Assembly (NCBI GenBank): GCA_900543035.1
Contig: UQPV01000040.1
Location: 1-26,089, forward strand
DNA from: an uncultured Solobacterium sp.
GTDB taxonomy: Bacteria > Bacillota_I > Bacilli_A > Erysipelotrichales > Erysipelotrichaceae
Length of the DNA stretch: 26,089 bases
Reading direction: 5' to 3'
Shown: piece after piece, positions 1 through 20,159 of the stretch
Layout of the letters: every line of letters begins with the position of its first letter
How positions within the stretch are numbered: the stretch's first letter is position 1
Translations under genes and position numbers: made by a program
The notes under the pieces: generated by a model
The model's input: only the letters and a program-made list of their open reading frames with translations
Told to the model about the DNA's origin: nothing
Databases searched by the model: none

Positions 1-819
1 TCTTCAGAACGGAATCGTTATCAGAACTGCATGACCGTTTCCAATATCGGCTTAGCTTCGGTTATCTCAGATCCTTTCGGAAAAACAGCTTCTAATATCA
101 TGAAAGAAGTCATGAAGTCCAACGTGATCGACGATGACAAGATCCTAAAGCTCGTTCATAGAAATTGCAAAAACAAAGATAAGATACTAGACTCTCTTCA
201 TGGTTATCACATCGAATCCGATCAACGATTCAAGATGGAGAAATCTTTGGATCATATGGAATATTTAGATCAGCTCATCGATTCATGCGAAGTGGAATTG
301 ATCAAACGTGCTTATCCTTTACGTAGATCCTTTCAGCATATCACGCAAATAAAAGGGATCAGCGCCTTATCTGCCATCCTCATCATCTCTGAGATAGGGA
401 TCGATATGTCTCAGTTTGAATCCGATAAACAACTTGTCAGCTGGGCCGGACTTTCTCCTGCCAACAACGAAAGTGCCGGCAAGAAAAAGTCGGTCCGTAT
501 CTCAAAAGCTGGACAGTATCTCAAACCATTACTTGTCCAATGTGCTTTATCAGCCATCAAAGATAAAGCTTCTTATTTTGGAAGAAAGTATTCCAATATC
601 AAGAAACGACGAGGTCATAAGAAAGCAATCATTGCGATCGCCCGCATGATGCTCGTTAGTATCTATCACATGATTCTTACAGGTGAAGAGTTTCAACCAA
701 CCGATCATGAATCTCTGATGAGTCCAAAATCAAACACAGACCAATCACTAACAGTTGAAAAAGCATTAAACTTTTTAAAACGATCTGGCATTGATATTTC
801 TTCTATTTTGGTCAACTGA
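1..819 (+). CDS. IS110-family transposase (DEDD recombinase), C-terminal part
   Basis: The reading frame is open from base 1 and reads through a typical pre-Transposase_20 sequence before the first ATG at 31, so the gene starts outside the window and this is its C-terminal ~272 codons. What remains contains the helical middle region and the Transposase_20 domain: a helix-hairpin-helix-like stretch (QIKGISALSAILIISEIG), then SWAGLSPANNESAGKKKSV and RISKAGQYLKPLLVQCA. The Ser in NESAG is at the position of the serine nucleophile in IS110 recombinases. The N-terminal RuvC-like DEDD half is not visible. The frame is intact to a TGA at 817-819, so nothing in view says it is broken. It is more AT-rich than the chromosome to its right, as expected of a mobile gene. 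Confidence 0.9.
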   Translation, partial: SSERNRYQNCMTVSNIGLASVISDPFGKTASNIMKEVMKSNVIDDDKILKLVHRNCKNKDKILDSLHGYHIESDQRFKMEKSLDHMEYLDQLIDSCEVELIKRAYPLRRSFQHITQIKGISALSAILIISEIGIDMSQFESDKQLVSWAGLSPANNESAGKKKSVRISKAGQYLKPLLVQCALSAIKDKASYFGRKYSNIKKRRGHKKAIIAIARMMLVSIYHMILTGEEFQPTDHESLMSPKSNTDQSLTVEKALNFLKRSGIDISSILVN

Positions 820-8734: not shown

Positions 8735-10027
8735 TCATCCGATATGGTCGACCGTGTCAAAGCGATAGCCCAGCCGCTTCATCTCGCGGATGAAGTCGTC
8801 CAGCGCTTCCCAGTTGCCCTTGTTGCTGGGATGAAGCAGATAGATGGCGCCGTTGTGATAATGATCCATCATCGTCTTCAGCGCTTCTTCCTCGGAGACA
8901 TCGCTGCCATAATCATAATATGCATGGCTCCAGAAATAGGTGCGGTAGCCCAGGTCGCAGACCATCTTCATCGCCCGTTCGCTGCATCCTCCCCGCGGAA
9001 AGCGGAAGATCTTCGGCATCGGCTCCCCGACGACCTCCAGATAAGTCTTTTCCTCCTGGGTGAGCTCCTCTACGAATGCATCGACCTGCTGGGCATTGGC
9101 CAGGGTCGTCATGTCATAGTGATGCCAGCTGTGATTGCCGATGACATGGCCGTGCTTCACCAGATCGCGCACGAAGTCCGCTTCATCGCGGATATAGTTG
9201 CGCGTGAGGAAAAATGTCGCCTTGACCTCATATTCATTGAGCACATCCGCGATCTGTTTGATATACGTGATGTCGTTTCCGCCTTCATCGAAGGTGAGAT
9301 AGATCACTTTCTCATCCGGCCCGATATAATACGCGCCATATGTCTTCAGCCAGTCCGCGCTCTTTGCGGCCGTGTTGCGGGCATGTGCCTGCGATTTATC
9401 GAACCACCATTCAAACGATGTGTTATCGAACAGATCATGATTGTATTCGAGCTTCACGTTGAGCGGATTTTCCAGGATCTGCACGCTGCGGCTGAGGGAT
9501 GTCTCATTGCCGTGGCTGTCGCTGACCGTATAGATGATCTCATACGTCCCTGCCTGATTGAAATCGACGCGCGAATCCGTATGCACCCGATCGCTGATGT
9601 CGCCATCGCAGTTGTCATATGCGCTGTAGCCGGGCTCTTCATACTGATCGCCGATGAACAGCTTCAGCTGCGCATCGCCCTTCAGCCGCAGATCCGGCGC
9701 TTTGCCATCGATCACCTCGACCGTCCGCACGGCCCGCTTGTCGGCATTGTCCAGCGTATAGATGACCTGATATGTCCCCAGCCGGGACGTGTCCACCGTG
9801 CTCTCCATATGCAGATGATCGCTGTTGTCCATAAAGCGGTATACGCTCTTGGCACCTGGATCCTGATAGGTCTCGTTCATGTTGACCTGCAGATGATCGC
9901 CGCCCACCAGCTCGAGGGTCGGGATGAAGATGCCGCTGAAGAACAGAAAGTGCACCAGCAGCGCCGCGATGCCGGCTATGATGAGCGATACGATCGAATA
10001 GACCACGATACGGCAGCGTGTGCTCAT
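8735..10027 (-). CDS. Membrane-anchored polysaccharide deacetylase with two Ig-like domains
   Basis: A 430-residue surface enzyme likely to deacetylate peptidoglycan or another N-acetylated glycan. It has an N-terminal membrane anchor (~8-33), two DUF5011-type Ig-like repeats (~38-105, ~110-185; both with a Y-x-x-P-G start and GTYxxIYT end) and a NodB domain (~235-430). The NodB motifs are TFDEGG, GNHSWHH (H-x3-H metal ligands), FRFPRGG and AIYLLHPSN. Motif 1 reads Asp-Glu where most members have Asp-Asp; PdaA-type enzymes also vary there. The C-terminal domain is most like the PdaA branch. GAGGTG lies 4-5 bp ahead of the ATG. It is the last gene of the murF operon, in keeping with a cell-wall role. 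Confidence 0.9.
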   Translation of the reverse strand: MSTRCRIVVYSIVSLIIAGIAALLVHFLFFSGIFIPTLELVGGDHLQVNMNETYQDPGAKSVYRFMDNSDHLHMESTVDTSRLGTYQVIYTLDNADKRAVRTVEVIDGKAPDLRLKGDAQLKLFIGDQYEEPGYSAYDNCDGDISDRVHTDSRVDFNQAGTYEIIYTVSDSHGNETSLSRSVQILENPLNVKLEYNHDLFDNTSFEWWFDKSQAHARNTAAKSADWLKTYGAYYIGPDEKVIYLTFDEGGNDITYIKQIADVLNEYEVKATFFLTRNYIRDEADFVRDLVKHGHVIGNHSWHHYDMTTLANAQQVDAFVEELTQEEKTYLEVVGEPMPKIFRFPRGGCSERAMKMVCDLGYRTYFWSHAYYDYGSDVSEEEALKTMMDHYHNGAIYLLHPSNKGNWEALDDFIREMKRLGYRFDTVDHIG

Positions 10028-10067: not shown

Positions 10068-11651
10068 TTATGCCTCAGCCGGAGCAAAACGCTGCATGAG
10101 CGACATGGCGCCGCGCACGCCGTCCACCGCGCTGGTGACGATGCCGCCGGCATAGCCTGCGCCCTCGCCCAGCGGCATGATGCCTTCGATGCTGGAGGTG
10201 AGCGTCTCGTCTCTGCACATGCGCAGCGGCGAGCTGCTGCGGCTTTCCACCGCGCTCAGGATCCCGCAGGTGGAAAAGCCCGGCAGCTGATGCTCGAAGT
10301 GTTGAAGCCCTTCTTCCAGCGCCGTGCTGATCGCGGCCGGAAAAAGATCGTGCAGATCACAGAGCGTCACGCCCCTGGCATAGCTCGGCACCACTTCGCC
10401 GATCTCAAGGGAAGGGCGGCGCGCCAGAAAGTCACGGACCTGCTGGGCCGGGGCGCGATAGGATGAACCGCCCATCACGAAGGCCCGATGCTCCAGCTCT
10501 TCCTGAAAGCGCATGCCGTCAAAGGGACCGCTGCCATAGTCGGCCGGCGTCACCTGGACGAGCAAGGCGCTGTTGGCATTAGCCTGATCGCGGGCATGCT
10601 CGCTCATGCCGTTGACGACCACGCCATGCGGCGCGCTGGCCGCGGGAACGACAAAGCCGCCCGGACACATGCAGAAGGTGTAGACGCCGCGTCCGCCTGA
10701 GGTGCGGCTGCTCATGCGGTAGCTGGCCGCGCCCAGCCGGGGATGGCCCGCATAACGGCCATACAGCGCCTGATCGATCATCTGCTGGGGATGCTCCACC
10801 CGCACGCCGACGGCAAATGCCTTGGCCTCCATCTGCATCCCGCAGGCATGCAGCGTGCGCATCGTATCCCGGGCACTGTGCCCGATGCAAAGCAGCGCCT
10901 GCTCGCAGGGCAGCTCTTCCCCGTTCACGATCAGCGCGCGCAAGGCGCCTGATGACAGAAGGAAATCCTCAGCCTGCGCATCAAAGCGCACCTCGCCGCC
11001 CAGGGCGATGATCTCGCTGCGGATCGCCTTGACGATGCCCGAGAGGATATCCGTGCCGATATGCGGATGCGCCTCATACAAGATCTGCTCTGGCGCGCCG
11101 AAGCGCACGAGCTCCTCCAGCACATGATGACAGCGGGGATCCTTGGAGCGGGTGGTCAGCTTGCCATCGGAAAATGTCCCTGCTCCCCCTTCCCCGAACT
11201 GCACGTTGCACTGGGGATCGAGCTGTCCGCCGGCCCAGAATTCCCGGACGCGGCGGGTGCGTGTCTCCACGCAAGAGCCGCGCTCCAGGATGATGGGACA
11301 ATAGCCGTTCTGCGCCAGCAGCAATCCGGCGAACATGCCGGAAGGGCCGAAGCCGATCACGACCGGGCGGTGCGTCAAACGCTCGCTGCCTTGCTCAGGC
11401 AGCGTGAAGGGCACAACTTCGGCCCTGGCGACATCGCGCAGACGGCGGCGCAGCAGTGCTGCTTCATGGCGCACCTCGCACTCCAGCGTATACGAGAACA
11501 TGATCGGATCCTTGCGGGCGTCGATGCTTTCCCGTACGATCGAAAAGCGGATCAGTTCATCCTTGCTGATCCGCAGTTTTTTACAAAGCTTTTCTTCCAG
11601 CTGATCCAGATCTTCATCGATGGTCAGCTTCACCTGTGATACTCTGAGCAT
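10068..11651 (-). CDS. FAD-dependent oxidoreductase of the COG2509 type
   Basis: A 527-residue flavoprotein. An N-terminal ~90-residue domain (VSQVKLTIDEDLDQLEEKLCKKL...) precedes the dinucleotide-binding fold VVIGFGPSGMFAGLLLAQNG with an acidic ILERG end. The family signature QFGEGGAGTFSDGKLTTR follows, and GEGAGYAGGIVTSAVDG closes the FAD site near the C-terminus. Domain order and length match uncharacterised bacterial FAD-dependent dehydrogenases; the substrate is unknown. An AGGAGG lies 4 bp ahead of the ATG, and the gene begins 8 bp after the acyltransferase stop, so it is in the wall operon. Nothing in its sequence ties it to wall synthesis, so it may be a passenger. Confidence 0.88.
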   Translation of the reverse strand: MLRVSQVKLTIDEDLDQLEEKLCKKLRISKDELIRFSIVRESIDARKDPIMFSYTLECEVRHEAALLRRRLRDVARAEVVPFTLPEQGSERLTHRPVVIGFGPSGMFAGLLLAQNGYCPIILERGSCVETRTRRVREFWAGGQLDPQCNVQFGEGGAGTFSDGKLTTRSKDPRCHHVLEELVRFGAPEQILYEAHPHIGTDILSGIVKAIRSEIIALGGEVRFDAQAEDFLLSSGALRALIVNGEELPCEQALLCIGHSARDTMRTLHACGMQMEAKAFAVGVRVEHPQQMIDQALYGRYAGHPRLGAASYRMSSRTSGGRGVYTFCMCPGGFVVPAASAPHGVVVNGMSEHARDQANANSALLVQVTPADYGSGPFDGMRFQEELEHRAFVMGGSSYRAPAQQVRDFLARRPSLEIGEVVPSYARGVTLCDLHDLFPAAISTALEEGLQHFEHQLPGFSTCGILSAVESRSSSPLRMCRDETLTSSIEGIMPLGEGAGYAGGIVTSAVDGVRGAMSLMQRFAPAEA

Positions 11652-11659
11652 ACGTCCTC

Positions 11660-12673
11660 CTAATACAGAACCTTCATCCAGGCAAAGCTCCTGGAAAGCA
11701 AGATGATCGCTGCGGCCAGCAGCTGGCTGGCAGCGAGCACGAGCAGATAGACGAGCAGATGATGTCCGCCCAGCAACGAGAGCAGCGGCATCGCAAACAG
11801 GATATGCGATACATAGATGAGCTGCGAGGACTGCCGCAGAAACTGATGCAGCGGGGCAGCCGGTCCGCGCACCTGCAGCAGCGCGCCCACCAGAAAATAG
11901 ACGAAGGGCACCATCATCACATACATGCTGGTCAGATCATGCATGTTGCCGCTGAGCCAGGCGATGCCCTCTTCCCCAAGCAGGAGCAGATAAGAGATGC
12001 CCATGCCCAGCGCATGCTCACGTTTGCTGCGCACTGGCGCACGCTGCAGCAGCGCCCCCAGCAAGATGAAGATCGGGCCGAAGAAGATGCCGTTGCGCGC
12101 CGTGGTGAACACGCTGAGGTATGCCGAGACGGCATTGCCCAATACCGGGATCTGGCAAAGGACATCGCCGTACACATTGACAGCGGATCCGGCGAGATAC
12201 AACAGCCCGCACACGATGAGGCTCTTCTTCATCCCGCAGTTCAGATAGAGCAGGTAGACGATGAGCGTCGCAAGCATCAGCGCCGGCAAGAACCACAGAT
12301 GATAATAGCTGCCGTTGAAGACGCAGTCAAACAGCCAGCGCAGGATCGATGCGCCATTGTGCAGCTGGATGGCGGTATACGGCAGATAGATGATCGTCCA
12401 GACCAGATACAGCGTGCCGATGCGCCGAAGAAAATGCTTCAATTGCGCAAGGTTGACCTCATCGCGCCAGCCGGCCTGCACATCGATGCGCCGGAAGAAC
12501 AAAAAGGCGCTGACGGTGAAGAAGAACGGCACGGCGATGCGGCAGACGGCCTGCAGGACGATCATGTTGAGATCGGCCGAGATGTCCGCCAGCGGAAATG
12601 TATGAATGTAAACCACCAGCAGGGCGCTGATGTATTTGGCGATGTCAATGGCGGTATAGCTCTTGCTTTTCAT
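11660..12673 (-). CDS. Acyltransferase-3 family membrane protein, VanT membrane-domain-like
   Basis: A 337-residue integral membrane protein with about ten hydrophobic segments. The N-terminus (AIDIAKYISALLVVYIHTFPL, with the His of acyltransferase-3 proteins, then CRIAVPFFFTVSAFLFF) closely resembles the N-terminal membrane domain of VanT serine racemases (from memory, no alignment run). In VanT this domain is fused to a racemase; here the racemase is the gene directly upstream, with its TGA only 2 bp before this ATG. ATG 12673 has GGAAGGG 6 bp ahead; the alternative ATG at 12679 overlaps the racemase stop but directly abuts that site. Roles could be serine uptake or delivery for D-Ser, as proposed for VanT, or O-acetylation of a glycan. 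Confidence 0.82.
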   Translation of the reverse strand: MKSKSYTAIDIAKYISALLVVYIHTFPLADISADLNMIVLQAVCRIAVPFFFTVSAFLFFRRIDVQAGWRDEVNLAQLKHFLRRIGTLYLVWTIIYLPYTAIQLHNGASILRWLFDCVFNGSYYHLWFLPALMLATLIVYLLYLNCGMKKSLIVCGLLYLAGSAVNVYGDVLCQIPVLGNAVSAYLSVFTTARNGIFFGPIFILLGALLQRAPVRSKREHALGMGISYLLLLGEEGIAWLSGNMHDLTSMYVMMVPFVYFLVGALLQVRGPAAPLHQFLRQSSQLIYVSHILFAMPLLSLLGGHHLLVYLLVLAASQLLAAAIILLSRSFAWMKVLY

Positions 12674-12675
12674 TG

Positions 12676-13839
12676 TCATCCCTTCCTGATATAGATCCGC
12701 GGCACCCGGGCGGTGATCCGCGTCAGTGTCTCATTGTTGATGGTATGCGCCGCGCGGCTCATGGCATCCACGCTCACGCGCTCGCTTCCCTGTGTTCCGA
12801 TGAGCGTAACGACGTCTCCCTCTTGGACATCCTCCACCTCGCTCACATCGATCATCAGCTGATCCATGCAGATGTTGCCGATGATCGGCACGCGCACGCC
12901 ATGAAGCAGCACCTCAAAGCCAGTGTTGGAGAGGATGCGGGGAATGCCGTCCGCATAGCCGATGGACACGCTGGCCACCTTCGTCTCGCGCTCAGCGCGG
13001 AAATGGCGGCCATAGCTTACGCTGACCCCCGGCGCGATCATCTTGACCATCGTCACGTTCGCATGCAGCGAGAGGATCGGATGAAAGTCCGGCGCGGTGT
13101 TGATCGGGATCTGATCATCGCTCGTCACGCCCATGTACAACAGTCCCGGGCGCACATAGTCATAGTGCAGATCGGGATAGTTGAGGATGCCATAGCTGTT
13201 TTGCAGATGGCGCACGCCACAGTCGAAGCCGGCGGCCTGAATGTCGCTGAGCACCCGGTCGAACAGCTCGATCTGATGCGCTGTGAACGCCAGGTCCTCT
13301 TCCGTGTGCGAGTCGCTCACACTGAAATGAGAGAAGATGCCGGTGACCTTCACGTGCTTCATCGCATACATCTTGAGGATCTCCTCGATATGATAGGCGT
13401 GATCCTGCACGATGACGCCGATGCGGCTCATGCCGGTATCGGCCTTGACATGCGCTTCGATCACGCAGCCCTGCGCCTTCGCGTAGGCTTCGAGCTTCTT
13501 GGCATAAGGAAGGTCGACGAGCGTCTGGATCAGATCACATTCATGCAGATAGTGAAAATGCGCAGGCGGCGTGTAGCCCAGGATCAGGATAGGGCTGTGA
13601 ATGCCGTGTTCGCGCAGGTGCACGCCCTCATCGACGCTGCTGACCGCGAAGAAATCGACGCCGCAGCGCTCCAGCTCCCGCGTGCATTCCACATCCCCAT
13701 GGCCATAGGCATCCGCCTTGACGATGCCCATGATCTTGCTGGATGCAGGGATGAGCTGACGGATCTGTTGGACATTGTGCTCGATCTGGGTCAGATCGAT
13801 CTGGGCCCAGGCGCGGCTCTTACTGTTCAGCACGGCCAT
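12676..13839 (-). CDS. alr: Alanine/serine racemase, VanT-like catalytic domain
   Basis: A 387-residue fold-III PLP racemase. The PLP Lys is in GIVKADAYGHG (Lys41) and the second base Tyr in GVSVSYGRHF (~residue 268). The central sequence HLQNSYGILNYPDLHYDYVRPGLLYMGV and the GNICMDQL motif read like VanT racemase domains. Near the C-terminus the motif is TINNE: Asn369 stands where alanine racemases have Tyr (Tyr354 in the Geobacillus enzyme, INYE), the change linked to serine racemisation. ATG 13839 is chosen over the in-frame start at 13881, which has no ribosome binding site; the start overlaps ddl by 20 bp. It supplies D-Ala and perhaps D-Ser to the ligase encoded just upstream. Confidence 0.93.
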   Translation of the reverse strand: MAVLNSKSRAWAQIDLTQIEHNVQQIRQLIPASSKIMGIVKADAYGHGDVECTRELERCGVDFFAVSSVDEGVHLREHGIHSPILILGYTPPAHFHYLHECDLIQTLVDLPYAKKLEAYAKAQGCVIEAHVKADTGMSRIGVIVQDHAYHIEEILKMYAMKHVKVTGIFSHFSVSDSHTEEDLAFTAHQIELFDRVLSDIQAAGFDCGVRHLQNSYGILNYPDLHYDYVRPGLLYMGVTSDDQIPINTAPDFHPILSLHANVTMVKMIAPGVSVSYGRHFRAERETKVASVSIGYADGIPRILSNTGFEVLLHGVRVPIIGNICMDQLMIDVSEVEDVQEGDVVTLIGTQGSERVSVDAMSRAAHTINNETLTRITARVPRIYIRKG

Positions 13840-14899
13840 CACCCCCAGCTTTGCGCTGCAGCGCAAGATCCACCAGATCATCGATCAATTGCGGAAAGGG
13901 GATGCCGATCTCCTTCATCATGGAAGGATAACGGGAGGTCGCGGTAAATCCAGGAATGGTGTTGAGCTCGTTGAAGATGATCGTGCGGGACGGTGTGACG
14001 AACATGTCCACGCGGGTCATGCCGCTGCAGTTCATGGCGCGGTAAGCTCTCTTCGCCATGTCGCGCGCGGCCTCGAACAGTTCCTCATCGATGCGCGCCG
14101 GGCAATAGATGGCCGCATCCTTCATCTCATATTTTCCTTCATAATCGAAGAAGCTGCCGGCGATCTCGATCTCATCGACGCTGCCCGCGATCACTTCCTC
14201 ATTGCCCATGACGGCGCAGCCGATCTCAAAGCCTTCGATGGCCTTCTCCAGGATGACCTTGCCTTTTCCATCGTGATAGAACGCGTCCGCAAGCGCCTGC
14301 GCAAACCCTTCTTCGCCTTCGATGCAATGGATGCCGTAACTGCTTCCGGCATTGCATGGCTTGATGAAGAACGGCAGGCCGAGCTGATCACGTGCGGCGG
14401 CGAACACTTCGGCAGGATCGCGGTGCTCCCAGGCATACACGCTCATATACGGCGCGCAGGGGATGCCGGCATGCTCGACGATGATATGCGTCATCTCTTT
14501 ATCCATGCAGATGGCGCTGCTCATGTGGTCGCAGCCCACATACGGGATATCGCTCAGCTCGAACAGCCCCTGAATGGTGCCGTCCTCTCCATTCTTCCCA
14601 TGCAGGACGGGAAAAATACAGTCCAGATGACGGATCTCATAAGATCCTTCGTGCAGGATGAGCAGTCCGTCGTGGGTCAGCGCGCAAGGGGTGCATTTCT
14701 CCTGCTGCCAGCGGTCATGCTCCAGGGCGTCGATGCTTCCCTCATACAGGAACCACTCGCCTTCCTTGGAGATCGCGATCATCGTGATCGCATAACGCTC
14801 TGTGCGGATCTGCCGCAGCAGGCTGGCCGCTGAGTGCAGAGATACCGCATATTCGCTTGATTTTCCGCCGAATACGACGCCAAGCGCTGTCTTATTCAT
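13820..14899 (-). CDS. ddl: D-alanine--D-alanine/D-serine ligase, VanG-like
   Basis: A 359-residue ATP-grasp ligase that joins D-Ala to a second D-amino acid for the wall stem peptide. Motifs: VVFGGKSSEYAVSL (~8-21), FPVLHGKNGEDGTIQG (~96-111), FFIKPCNAGSSYGI (~177-190), EGFEIGCAVMG, FFDYEGKY in the omega loop (250-257) and NELNTIPGF with metal ligands. The wording SSEYxVSLxSA, VGCDHMSSAICMDK and MNCSGMTRVDMF is very close to VanG D-Ala-D-Ser ligases as I remember them, though plain Ddl enzymes of related clostridia can look alike. ATG 14899 has AGGAAG 8 bp ahead and overlaps the murF end by 8 bp; an upstream in-frame start at 14944 lies in murF. It sits between murF and the racemase. Confidence 0.93.
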   Translation of the reverse strand: MNKTALGVVFGGKSSEYAVSLHSAASLLRQIRTERYAITMIAISKEGEWFLYEGSIDALEHDRWQQEKCTPCALTHDGLLILHEGSYEIRHLDCIFPVLHGKNGEDGTIQGLFELSDIPYVGCDHMSSAICMDKEMTHIIVEHAGIPCAPYMSVYAWEHRDPAEVFAAARDQLGLPFFIKPCNAGSSYGIHCIEGEEGFAQALADAFYHDGKGKVILEKAIEGFEIGCAVMGNEEVIAGSVDEIEIAGSFFDYEGKYEMKDAAIYCPARIDEELFEAARDMAKRAYRAMNCSGMTRVDMFVTPSRTIIFNELNTIPGFTATSRYPSMMKEIGIPFPQLIDDLVDLALQRKAGGDGRAEQ

Positions 14900-16295
14900 G
14901 TTCAACACTTCCTTTGTCCTTTTCCGTGAGACAGTCGACGACACTGTCCATATGCATGCCGCGCGATCCTTTGACCAGGATCATGCACGGCGCGTCAAGC
15001 TCGTTCATCAGCGATCGCTGCATCGCTTCCTTCGTCTCAAAATGGGTGACATCCTTCATGCCGGCGTTGATGGCGCCCTGTGCCGTAAAGCGGGACATCT
15101 CTCCCCATGTGCACAATCGGTCGATGCCGTATTCCGCCACGGCCTTGCCCACCGCATAATGCAGCATCGGGCCGGCTTCTCCCATGTCCAGCATGTCGGA
15201 CAGCGCGGCTACCCGGCGCGGCACATCGAAGTCATGCAGCGTCTTGAGCGCGGCCAGCGCGCTCTGCCGGTTCGATTTATAAGAATCATCCAGGATCCAT
15301 CCTTGTCTGACCGCGATCACGTCATTGCGCATCCCGGTCTTCTCGATGTGGGCGAGCCCTGCGAGGATCTCTTCCTCGCTGAGCCCAAGCGCCTTGGCGG
15401 CGTAGATGGCCGGCAGGGCGTTGAGCACCTGGTGCGCGCCATAGACGTTCATGTAGACTTCCGCCGCCATCAGGTTGGTGCAGAAGCGAAGCCCGTCCGC
15501 GCCCTGCTGGATCCTGCCGTAGCTGAACAGATCCTGTTCCCTGCTGCTGCCGAAGCTCTCCACCGTGACGCCTGCGGGCAGCTGTTCCGCAGCGAGGGCG
15601 GCGGACAGCACCGGCTGTTCCCCATTATACAGCAATACGCCGTTTTCCTTCAGTCCATGCACGATTTCCGCCTTGGCGCGGGCTATGTTTTCCAGCGAGC
15701 CGAGATTTTCCAGATGTGCTTCGCCCACATTGGTGATGATGGCGATATCCGGCTTCACCATGCGGGCGAGCAGGTCGATCTCGCCGCGGTTCTCCATGCC
15801 CATCTCCACCACGGCCACCTGATCCTCCTCTGACAGCTCCAGCAGCGTCAGCGGGACGCCGATCTCATTGTTGCGGTTGCCCTTGGTCTTGCCGGTCACA
15901 TAGCGGCGGGAGAGCATGCTGCTGAGGATGTCCTTGACGGATGTCTTGCCATTGCTGCCGGTGATGCCGATCACCACCAGATCGAGCGAATCGCGGTAGG
16001 CAGACGCCAGCTTCTGCAATGCCTGCAGCGTGTCGTCCACGCCGATCACCGGTATGCCATGGGGATGGTCAGGATGATCCTTCTGCCACAGCAAAGCGCC
16101 TGCGCCCTGCGCGATGGCCTGCGCGGCATAATCGTGCCCGTCGAAGCGTTCTCCGACAAGCGGAATGAAAAGAGAACCTCTTCCGCAGCTGCGCGAGTCC
16201 GTGCTCACGCCGCTGATCACGGCATCGAGGTCTCCTCCCTCTATCAGATCCGCATCCAGCATTTGAATGACGGAGTCAATGGTTCGCAAAATCAT
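14892..16295 (-). CDS. murF: UDP-MurNAc-tripeptide--D-alanyl-D-X ligase
   Basis: MurF adds the dipeptide made by Ddl to the UDP-MurNAc-tripeptide. The 467-residue protein shows the N-terminal Mur domain (GVSTDSRSCGRGSLFIPLVG), the P-loop GITGSNGKTSVKD, KGNRNNEIGVPLTLL, the Mg-binding VVEMGMENRGEI and NVGEAHLENLGS stretch, and the C-terminal domain (LVKGSRGMHMD). The conserved D-x-Y-N-A-N-P region reads DDSYKSNRQS, with Arg replacing Pro. ATG 16295 has GAGGTG 6 bp ahead; the in-frame GTG at 16304 forms part of that site. First gene of the murF-ddl-alr-acyltransferase-oxidoreductase-deacetylase operon. Confidence 0.95.
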   Translation of the reverse strand: MILRTIDSVIQMLDADLIEGGDLDAVISGVSTDSRSCGRGSLFIPLVGERFDGHDYAAQAIAQGAGALLWQKDHPDHPHGIPVIGVDDTLQALQKLASAYRDSLDLVVIGITGSNGKTSVKDILSSMLSRRYVTGKTKGNRNNEIGVPLTLLELSEEDQVAVVEMGMENRGEIDLLARMVKPDIAIITNVGEAHLENLGSLENIARAKAEIVHGLKENGVLLYNGEQPVLSAALAAEQLPAGVTVESFGSSREQDLFSYGRIQQGADGLRFCTNLMAAEVYMNVYGAHQVLNALPAIYAAKALGLSEEEILAGLAHIEKTGMRNDVIAVRQGWILDDSYKSNRQSALAALKTLHDFDVPRRVAALSDMLDMGEAGPMLHYAVGKAVAEYGIDRLCTWGEMSRFTAQGAINAGMKDVTHFETKEAMQRSLMNELDAPCMILVKGSRGMHMDSVVDCLTEKDKGSVEHE

Positions 16296-16340
16296 TTCAT
16301 TCACCTCATCGCGTCAGATCTCTTTCATCTGAGCCTATAT

Positions 16341-18397: not shown

Positions 18398-18435
18398 GAG
18401 AAAAGGCCGGCTCCCCCCTTAGCCGGCCTTTTCTC
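18398..18435. terminator. Bidirectional terminator next to vanZ
   Basis: A perfect 15-bp inverted repeat (18398-18412 with 18421-18435, 8-nt loop) has a GC-rich core, GGCCGGCT, flanked by AAAA on one side and TTTT on the other. It overlaps the vanZ stop codon and can end minus-strand transcription of vanZ as well as any plus-strand transcript. Confidence 0.85.
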
Positions 18436-18874
18436 ATGCTCTTCGATCCCGCTTTCTCTTCCAGGCGATGATCCATAGGCAGAGCAGGATGCCGCACAAT
18501 GCGCCGAGGCTGTCCAGCGCGACATCGCTGAGCTGCGCGCTCCTGCCCATGACCATCATCTGATGCAGCTCATCGCTGCACGCATACAGCGCGCAGATGA
18601 TCCAGGCGGCTGCCGCCTTTGCCTTCCCCGCATGAAACAGCGCCATGTACACACAGATGCCCAGCAGCGCATAGATGGAAAAATGCGCGCCCTTGCGGAT
18701 GAGAAAGCTGAGCATATCCGCGTCGAGCCATGCCGCAAAGGGCAAAAGCAGATCGACGAATACGCCGCTCTTGGCATCCGAGGCACTGGCTGTATCCGAG
18801 GAGAAAAAGAAGATGAGCGCCATGATCGCCAGAGCAGCCATGCTCCAGCACATGCATGCTTTCTTCTGTCTCAT
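18434..18874 (-). CDS. VanZ-family membrane protein
   Basis: A 146-residue protein with four hydrophobic segments. Family marks are FFFSSDTA after the first segment, RKGAHFSIYALLG in the middle, and SDELHQMMVMGRSAQLSDVALDSLGALCG near the end. VanZ of Tn1546 gives low-level teicoplanin resistance by an unknown route; most chromosomal relatives have no proven function, so no resistance is claimed. ATG 18874 has AAGGAGG ~7 bp ahead; an in-frame start at 18904 lies inside the upstream gene. It begins 1 bp after the MocR-type regulator stop, so the two are co-transcribed. Confidence 0.88.
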   Translation of the reverse strand: MRQKKACMCWSMAALAIMALIFFFSSDTASASDAKSGVFVDLLLPFAAWLDADMLSFLIRKGAHFSIYALLGICVYMALFHAGKAKAAAAWIICALYACSDELHQMMVMGRSAQLSDVALDSLGALCGILLCLWIIAWKRKRDRRA

Positions 18875-18875
18875 T

Positions 18876-20159
18876 TCACGCCCTCCTTTCCTGCAGCGTC
18901 TCACTGAGATGGTGAAGCGCTTCTTCCAGATCTGCCGTCGCTGAAAATGACAGCGTGAGCGATGCGCCCTGCAGCGCGTCGACGGCTATGCCCTCCTGCA
19001 TCAGATCGTCAGTATTTAGCGTGCAGACATAGGGCAGCTGAAAATGATAGCGGATCGTCGATTCTTCCAGGCGCGTCAGCTCCCACCCCGCCTCTTGTGC
19101 AAATCGCATGAGCGTATCATGCCGGCGGCGGTACCGGCGCTTGAGCCGCGTGATCCGGCGGTGCAGATGACCGTCCGCGATGTAAGAAGCGAAGGCGATC
19201 TGTTCCAGCTTGGATGCGCCGGGACCATAGTCATCCCTCGCGCGGTAACGCGCAGCCAGCGCGCGGGGAAGGATCATGTAGCTGATGCGCAGCGCCGGCA
19301 GCAGGATGCGGGAAAACGAGCCCAGATAGACGCTGGACAGCTCCTCGCTGAAGCTGCCCATCGCGGTGGCGCCAGGGCGCAGGTAGGACAGCTCCCCATT
19401 GTGATCATCCTCAATCAGCAGGATGCCGCGTGCATGGATCTCGCGCATCAGTGCTTCCTGATGCGCGCGGGAAAATGAGCGGGCATCCAGAAGCGCAGGA
19501 GGATACAGGTAGATCACATCTGCATCCGGCAGCGAACGGCTGGACAAAGGCGCGCTGATGGGCCGCACCTTCATGCCGTAATCCTCAAATACGCGCTGTG
19601 CCTGCCGGTAGGCGCCCTGCTGCAGCGCGGCGCTTTGCCCATGCTCCAGCAGCCCGCACAGCTGATAGAGCAGCGATTGCACGCTTGCGCCGATCACGAC
19701 TTGTTCCCGGGATGCCCATATGCCGCGTTCGCTGGCATAGCGGGCCAAAGACGCGCGCAGCACGCTTTCCCCCTGAGCATCGCCATAGGAGCCGATATCC
19801 GCGTCATTCATCGCCTTCTTCAGATACTGTCGCCAGATGATCAGCTCGCTCTCTTCCGGAAGCACGGACTGAGAGCGCAGATCGTAGCGAAGCGCAGGCC
19901 GGGGATGCGCGGAAAAGCGCAGCAGTTCCTCATGCAGGCGGCGGTTTTGCTCGCTCATCGCGACATAATACCCTTTCTGGGCGCGCGCCGTGATGTATCC
20001 TTCCAGCTGCAGCTGGGCAAAGGCATGCTCGACGGTCGTCTTGGATAAGTGGAACTGCTCCACGCATGCGCGGATGCTGGGCAGCTTTTCTCCCTGGCGG
20101 CGTGTCCCATCCAGGATCTCGCTGCGGATACGCGCACAGATGATCTCATATTTCTTCAT
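18876..20159 (-). CDS. MocR-type GntR regulator with degenerate aminotransferase domain
   Basis: A 427-residue protein: an N-terminal GntR winged helix (~1-70; LPSIRACVEQFHLSKTTVEHAFAQLQLEGYI) is joined to a fold-I aminotransferase-like domain (~95-427). In MocR proteins such as GabR and PdxR this domain binds PLP through a Lys in FSK. Here the motif reads LGSFSRILLPALR, with Arg284 in place of that Lys. The preceding EDDYD-type motif reads EDDHN, with His253 for the PLP-contacting Tyr. The 31-residue distance between the two matches GabR (Tyr281, Lys312, from memory). It is divergent from an ECF S-component gene, typical of vitamin B6 regulators. A TATACT box and an AGGTGA site precede the ATG. 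Confidence 0.9.
   Translation of the reverse strand: MKKYEIICARIRSEILDGTRRQGEKLPSIRACVEQFHLSKTTVEHAFAQLQLEGYITARAQKGYYVAMSEQNRRLHEELLRFSAHPRPALRYDLRSQSVLPEESELIIWRQYLKKAMNDADIGSYGDAQGESVLRASLARYASERGIWASREQVVIGASVQSLLYQLCGLLEHGQSAALQQGAYRQAQRVFEDYGMKVRPISAPLSSRSLPDADVIYLYPPALLDARSFSRAHQEALMREIHARGILLIEDDHNGELSYLRPGATAMGSFSEELSSVYLGSFSRILLPALRISYMILPRALAARYRARDDYGPGASKLEQIAFASYIADGHLHRRITRLKRRYRRRHDTLMRFAQEAGWELTRLEESTIRYHFQLPYVCTLNTDDLMQEGIAVDALQGASLTLSFSATADLEEALHHLSETLQERRA

Follow-up and report, generated by a model that had tools for sequence, protein, structure and literature searches.

A murF-linked wall operon of Erysipelotrichaceae carries VanG-like and VanT-like enzymes and likely makes D-Ala-D-Ser

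Results

A wall operon with Van-like genes

We analyzed a 26,089-nucleotide contig of an uncultured Solobacterium sp. of the Erysipelotrichaceae (UQPV01000040.1, assembly GCA_900543035.1; hereafter, the window), which carries a minus-strand run predicted to encode MurF, a VanG-like ligase, a VanT-like racemase and an acyltransferase-3 (AT3) membrane protein, followed by a flavin adenine dinucleotide (FAD)-dependent protein. The features of this run are as follows.

14892..16304, minus strand: murF (UDP-MurNAc-tripeptide--D-alanyl-D-X ligase), first gene of the run; TIGR01143, 395 bits against a cut-off of 288.6
13820..14899, minus strand: predicted VanG-like D-Ala--D-Ser-type ligase, 359 amino acids (aa); probable ATG at 14899, with a longer open reading frame (ORF) from GTG 14944
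14147..14149, minus strand: codon of ligase Phe266 (ORF from GTG 14944), Tyr in Ddl; from alignments and codon reading
13931..13933, minus strand: codon of ligase Arg338 (ORF from GTG 14944), Met in Ddl; from alignments and codon reading
12676..13839, minus strand: predicted VanT-like serine/alanine racemase; probable ATG at 13839; from vanT-G-Cterm, PDB match and tree
12733..12735, minus strand: codon AAT of racemase Asn383 (ORF from 13881), equivalent to Tyr354 of G. stearothermophilus Alr; from alignment with VanTG 4ecl and C. difficile Alr 4lus
11660..12673, minus strand: VanT-type AT3 membrane protein with predicted TmAT fold; ATG at 12673 or 12679
10068..11651, minus strand: FAD-dependent protein, a conserved neighbour (PF21688), starting 8 bases past the AT3 stop

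The murF and ligase genes overlap, as do the ligase and racemase genes. A first-pass annotation of this DNA had described ligase, racemase and AT3 gene as one tight run with the last two 2 bp apart, and the coordinates bear this out for the ATG at 12673; from the ATG at 12679 these two genes overlap by 4 bp. Pfam domains were Dala_Dala_lig_N/C in the ligase, Ala_racemase_N/C in the racemase and Acyl_transf_3 in the AT3 protein. Since the run begins at murF and extends into the FAD gene, it is a wall-synthesis operon rather than a free-standing resistance module.

Van resistance clusters are recognized by VanXY, or VanX and VanY, beside the ligase, together with VanRS. None of these proteins, nor any other histidine kinase or response regulator, was recognized among the 26 window ORFs scanned, in line with the first-pass annotation. 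The run thus differs from vanG, for which the portion of PMC4405338 available to us describes an inducible promoter and vanURS regulators.

The ligase

Among 36 NCBIfam models, VanG scored highest against the window ligase (438 bits), and the closest PDB sequence was VanG 4fu0 (328 bits). Identity was 45% to VanG, 40% to VanC, VanN and VanA, 39% to Enterococcus gallinarum Ddl and 37% to Escherichia coli DdlA. VanG and VanTG of Enterococcus faecalis (4fu0, 4ecl) are the nearest solved relatives of the window enzymes and share their Phe, Arg and Asn.

The motifs FFDYEGKY and TSRYP of the window ligase combine Phe and Arg at the two specificity sites with a Lys-Tyr loop, matching VanG, VanC and VanN. 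In the reference alignment, all six Ddl rows had Tyr and Met, and all 20 rows from D-Ser-type van clusters had Phe and Arg. Both sites matter in VanC2. Phe/Arg is also common to VanA and VanB, which would be expected if the window ligase were of D-Ala-D-Lac type; however, VanA and VanB do not have the Lys-Tyr loop kept by the window ligase, VanG and VanC (GKY/EKY), and it is a serine-type racemase, not a VanH dehydrogenase, that adjoins the window gene. A D-Lac ligase is therefore highly improbable.

In a 44-row ligase tree, all 35 Phe/Arg ligases, namely those of the family, of VanG/C/N and VanA/B type and of the Erysipelothrix-type genomes described below, stood opposite Ddl and the second ligases of the family (branch 100/99). 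An approximately unbiased (AU) test rejected a clade of family ligases with five Gram-positive Ddl (p-AU 3.4e-5); adding DdlA to that clade gave p 0.02, and joining Erysipelothrix-type ligases with Ddl gave p 0.016. The 44 rows of each AU-test tree were hand-chosen. Larger trees contained a matching Van-side branch (98/94 and 99/96) that also included the ligases of loci L086-L088 and unsorted rows. The ligases of L039 and L006 were left out of the first large tree, that of L085, which is in two unjoined pieces, was left out as well, and the second large tree was built without 24 loci (near-copies and some others). These comparisons support a VanG-like enzyme rather than a strict Ddl. The first-pass annotation had proposed as much, and no grouping with strict Ddl, one part of what it named as refuting its reading, was recovered.

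The racemase

The best NCBIfam model for the window racemase was vanT-G-Cterm, at 467 bits over a cut-off of 460, and its closest PDB sequence was the VanTG racemase (4ecl, 319 bits). Identity was 43% to VanTG, 39% to VanT-C and 35% to C. difficile Alr. At the Asn383 site, nine of ten ordinary Alr rows, including C. difficile, had Tyr (the tenth is cut off there), and 22 of 22 rows from VanT-type clusters had Asn. The accessible parts of PMC3245724 and PMC3485190 link Tyr354 of G. stearothermophilus Alr to substrate specificity and give Asn at this position in E. gallinarum VanT. Where a strict Ddl and Alr pair has Tyr with Met and Tyr354, the window thus has Phe/Arg and Asn. The racemase tree, drawn without the L039 row and with a root that we placed on Alr, separated Alr on one side (100/99) and recovered the family (100/99) and VanT (97/93). 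The window racemase is therefore supported as VanT-like and carrying the VanT Asn, as first annotated. The same combination of Phe/Arg ligase and Asn racemase occurs in the vanC loci of E. gallinarum (L111, L064), a system that PMC12004154, in the text available, calls intrinsic and of D-Ser type. The E. gallinarum genome that contains L048 additionally encodes an ordinary Ddl and an independent Alr, and in L111 vanC has VanXY and VanRS as neighbours.

The AT3 membrane protein and the two-gene VanT

The best NCBIfam match of the AT3 protein was the membrane part of vanT-CELN (142 bits over residues 10-326; the whole-model cut-off of 900 was not reached). The protein was 39% identical to a VanT from a Subdoligranulum vanG cluster and 30-31% identical to VanT-C and to the VanT of a vanN cluster. 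A search of PDB sequences with it gave no match. The TmAT fold is predicted, and residues 15-26, counted from ATG 12679, form a K-x10-H motif, which fits the K/R-x10-H pattern of TmAT proteins; in Foldseek, HGSNAT came first at E 0.2, and the fold was clear only on a second comparison. Within the TmAT superfamily (AT3, HGSNAT), the window protein differs in lying on the VanT side: a tree in which the family rows were hand-thinned to 22 placed it with VanT membrane parts and apart from 13 other AT3 proteins. Support was modest (88/73), the VanT-side branch includes the stand-alone AT3 proteins L044-L052, we placed the root on a pair of long AT3 proteins, and several of the controls have long branches. 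This position agrees with the VanT-like character first assigned to the protein, and we set aside a chance-captured glycan O-acetyltransferase on the same ground.

VanT-type AT3 genes without a window-like racemase or ligase alongside were seen in Paenibacillus, Vagococcus, Enterococcus and Streptococcus (L044, L045, L047, L048, L051, L052); in L052, an alr lies 6 kb away. The E. gallinarum locus L048 was dropped as a VanT locus, as its AT3 gene stands alone.

VanTG is a single protein in the section of PMC6182600 available, whereas the window has separate racemase and AT3 genes, racemase first. The window accordingly departs from a single-polypeptide, membrane-first VanT, to which VanT-L is the known exception: the NCBIfam models vanT-L-mem and vanT-L-cat describe separate membrane and racemase genes, as in the window, although they score low against it (104 and 265 bits; cut-offs 675 and 750). 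In VanL, the membrane part comes first. The first-pass proposal of a two-gene VanT thus stands as to the separate genes, and its novelty falls, given the VanT-L models and the split genes of L074-L078, L082 and L084; what is unusual is confined to the inverse gene order and the position next to murF. These split genes belong to the vanG-type clusters of the order (L070-L078, L080, L082, L084, L085, L089), which have a fused VanT in L070-L073 and split genes, membrane then racemase, in the others. A vanG-type ligase together with a VanT-like AT3 was also seen in L110 and L053, from Subdoligranulum (a record filed as plasmid) and Gemmiger.

The further idea that AT3 is a required half of VanT fails here. 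Erysipelothrix-type genomes and deep-branching members have the operon without AT3 and retain the other signatures, so AT3 is dispensable. We infer a transmembrane acyltransferase that would assist the module without being an obligatory half of the racemase. No function has so far been considered for the AT3 part of VanT (PMC12423673), and these operons offer natural systems in which it is a separate gene.

Conservation of the operon in the family

A scan of named genomes with an alignment of the membrane protein yielded 57 loci, 43 of which (L001-L043) have the Erysipelotrichaceae-type operon; the remaining 14 are AT3 genes outside this type. The order murF-ligase-racemase-AT3 was kept in all 39 four-gene loci, the other four of the 43 lying at contig ends, and this identity of order argues that the arrangement is not due to chance. 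The FAD gene follows AT3 in 35 of the 39, within 200 bp in 28 of those. An acquired van cluster was dropped as an explanation because of this constant order and because the run is free of transposase and regulator genes. The operon was found in genera including Merdibacter, Faecalicoccus, Holdemanella, Floccifex, Faecalitalea, Catenisphaera, Allobaculum, Ileibacterium, Longicatena, Amedibacillus, Absicoccus and Breznakia. In Ileibacterium and Allobaculum, murF and the ligase gene appear fused in one frame of 774-808 aa (L005, 4430-6784; L006, 2445-4766; L014, 3821-6244); in L005 and L014, Pfam domains of both proteins were found within the single frame.

The specificity residues are nearly invariant. 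Counted as distinct proteins, 47 of 49 family operon ligases have Phe/Arg (one has Tyr/Arg, and one has Phe with the second site cut off), and 50 of 51 operon racemases have Asn, the other having Tyr. Among the best 120 listed matches in a database of 5.8 billion proteins, 119 ligases had Phe (one gap), and 117 racemases had Asn (one gap, two Tyr). The two Tyr racemases (P0122, P0218) resemble assembly chimeras, in which C-termini of another kind follow an N-terminus of family type, and we did not count them as exceptions. Where a locus had a single ligase and a single racemase, Phe was paired with Asn in 88 of 92 cases, a count that includes the window, van clusters and some genomes reached twice. 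Genomes reached twice also enter our other motif row counts, but not the counts of distinct proteins.

In one locus, L024, from a Holdemanella metagenome-assembled genome (MAG), Tyr occupies both the racemase site and the site where the ligase otherwise has Phe, with both codons TAT on one contig; the L024 racemase is nested among Asn relatives in the tree. Read from these codons, the lineage is one that altered both specificity sites together, a double change that would be expected if ligase and racemase share a substrate. Other departures lie outside the family: ligase Tyr goes with racemase Ser in L087 and with racemase Asp in L088, and ligase Phe goes with racemase Ile in L107. These three could mark other dipeptide endings.

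The ligase of Clostridium innocuum (P0034) is of the same kind by best match, with 66% identity to the window, 79% to L095 and the motifs FFDY and SRYP. For this species, the available passage of PMC8888209 presumes two chromosomal genes for a serine-ending precursor, with minimum inhibitory concentrations (MICs) of 4-16 mg/L. That account concerns two chromosomal genes of a single species; here, the same enzymes are seen as a core operon of the family and are often its only ligase and racemase.

Copy number and the second ligase

A family-type racemase was found in 35 of 196 genomes of the order (449-659 bits; next best, 342). Of these 35 genomes, 31 had one racemase match and four had two; the second racemase had Tyr in all three that were read, and in the fourth (G107), a repeat search gave the operon racemase only. 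With matches of at least 90 bits counted, the operon ligase was the sole ligase in 16 of the 35. In a partly identical set of 17 genomes behind the named loci, all had one Ala_racemase_C gene, and 12 had one ligase above 100 bits. VanXY (NF000380) exceeded its cut-off in none of the 35 genomes (best 142 of 250 bits; E. gallinarum gives 316), and a D-amino-acid transaminase exceeded its own in one, another reaching 253 of 277 bits. With one racemase in most members, this enzyme must also provide D-Ala there. VanT-type enzymes are said also to make D-Ala. These counts alter the first-pass picture in part: a D-Ser operon as the normal state is consistent with the signatures of both enzymes, and a merely local module is not, given sole-ligase and sole-racemase status in so many genomes.

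The other 19 genomes, including both Merdibacter-type ones (G002, G174), have a further Ddl-like ligase of 95-180 bits. In L058-L062, such a second gene (391-406 aa) has Leu at the specificity site and lies beside a MurF-like ORF of 531-578 aa in 5/5 cases; both MurF-like ORFs scanned with Pfam, two of the five, had no Mur_ligase N-terminal domain. The pair occurs in Merdibacter, Longicatena, Amedibacillus and another Erysipelotrichales genome. As the Merdibacter-type genomes are the window's nearest relatives, the window organism may also make some D-Ala-D-Ala and so have a mixed wall. The operon would then supply D-Ala-D-Ser and the second Mur-ligase-like and Ddl-like pair D-Ala-D-Ala or another dipeptide, so that D-Ser would be partial or conditional. 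We regard this arrangement, which is compatible with a serine-making operon, as credible but doubtful: the MurF-like neighbour and the frequency of the second gene speak for it; however, 16 of the 35 genomes have no second ligase, and in all five loci the second ligase has Leu at its specificity site and is missing the Arg site.

Erysipelothrix-type genomes

In eight further genomes of the order, murF is followed by a Phe/Arg ligase and an Asn racemase. These genomes have no AT3 gene alongside and only one ligase, and all eight encode another racemase, which has Tyr. An exact site for the genus primer MO102 was present in five of the eight and in none of eight other genomes tested, and the E. 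rhusiopathiae primer ER1F was found in one of 12 tested, G088, in nine copies; the identity of G088 comes from primer sites alone. Both primers are from the part of PMC12737714 available to us. Two MAGs titled Erysipelothrix rhusiopathiae (L027, L035) differ from the primer-positive genomes, and the L027 ligase and the racemases of both MAGs group with the Faecalitalea/Holdemanella part of the family; these titles look wrong.

In the text of PMC9637936 at hand, E. rhusiopathiae has a vancomycin MIC of 32 mg/L, resistance is termed characteristic of the species with its cause open, and a vex23-vncRS locus is proposed. That text infers D-Ala-D-Ala from the murF annotation, and its table gives one alr, which does not adjoin murF by locus tag, and no ligase. 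The murF-ligase-racemase set offers a possible, testable mechanism for this resistance. Among the listings and abstracts of Creative Commons-licensed PMC papers that we searched, none stated a D-Ala-D-Ser wall for the family or for Erysipelothrix, C. innocuum excepted, which is not proof of absence.

Surroundings of the operon

Outside the operon, a VanZ-like protein (18434-18904, minus strand; PF04892, 82 bits) lies one gene, a Na/Pi cotransporter, from murF. A polysaccharide deacetylase with Ig-like domains (8735-10027, minus strand) follows the FAD gene, a position kept in Merdibacter, Longicatena and others. An IS110/IS116-type transposase (1-819, plus strand; PF02371) is truncated by the window start.

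Discussion

We propose that the core wall operon of this Merdibacter-like bacterium likely makes D-Ala-D-Ser as a normal dipeptide, which would give a standing low-level vancomycin resistance. From gene order, residue pattern, copy number, tree positions and a predicted fold, we infer the following activities, precursor ending and resistance. The racemase, with Asn for Tyr354, would convert L-Ser to D-Ser and, where it is the sole racemase, also L-Ala to D-Ala. The ligase, with Phe/Arg and the Lys-Tyr loop, would join D-Ala to D-Ser, and MurF, encoded just upstream, would add the dipeptide to wall precursors, whose D-Ser ends would bind vancomycin poorly. Where there is no D-Ala-D-Ala ligase to counter, neither VanXY nor a sensor for vancomycin would be required.

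Several observations weigh against this proposal. The window ligase does not reach the curated VanG cut-off (NF000091, 495 bits) and passes a Ddl subfamily model (375 bits; cut-off 262), and by plain identity it is about equally near E. gallinarum Ddl and VanC, VanN or VanA; the racemase likewise passes the general alr model (347 bits; cut-off 168). Because VanA and VanB share Phe/Arg, the two sites alone cannot separate D-Ser from D-Lac, a distinction that falls to the loop. On the larger trees, L087 and L088, with Tyr/Leu ligases, sit on the Van-side branch, and only one locus has the double Tyr. A sole racemase must supply D-Ala, so Asn cannot signify serine only. The second ligases of more than half of the 35 genomes, Merdibacter-type ones among them, count in the same direction, as does the failure of AU tests to separate the order among family, Erysipelothrix-type and Van enzymes (p-AU 0.46-0.47 for the ligase and 0.06-0.37 for the racemase).

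Some of these points would fit ordinary housekeeping D-Ala-D-Ala enzymes that share ancestry with VanG and VanT and in which Phe, Arg and Asn were inherited and tolerated; the murF neighbour, the frequent single copies and the need for D-Ala from a sole racemase are what such enzymes would show. We nevertheless consider this explanation unlikely. The grouping of family ligases with Ddl was rejected, the Asn racemase is retained beside a Tyr-type second racemase wherever one was read, the sole family locus with a Tyr racemase also has a Tyr ligase, and D-Ser-ended precursors are reported for C. innocuum, whose ligase is of this kind, in the available passage of PMC8888209.

More tentatively, and at somewhat less than an even chance, D-Ala-D-Ser may be the native and often sole wall ending across Erysipelotrichaceae and Erysipelothrix, many members having lost any D-Ala-D-Ala ligase, vancomycin resistance their ground state, and an operon of this murF-ligase-racemase kind the origin of mobile vanG and vanT. 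If so, the intrinsic resistance of E. rhusiopathiae would be accounted for. Neither the family nor the Erysipelothrix-type enzymes are rejected by the AU tests as the earliest branch next to Ddl or Alr, so we make no claim on the oldest Van-like lineage.

What appears new, as far as the sequences tell, is the standing of the module, which is core, often single-copy and common to Erysipelothrix-type genomes, with a natural double change tying both enzymes together. Accounts of D-Ala-D-Ser usually treat it as an added form of resistance working against a resident D-Ala-D-Ala ligase; here, it would be built into the core wall operon. This would predict which gut commensals survive oral vancomycin, and it offers a chromosomal relative of vanG and vanT.

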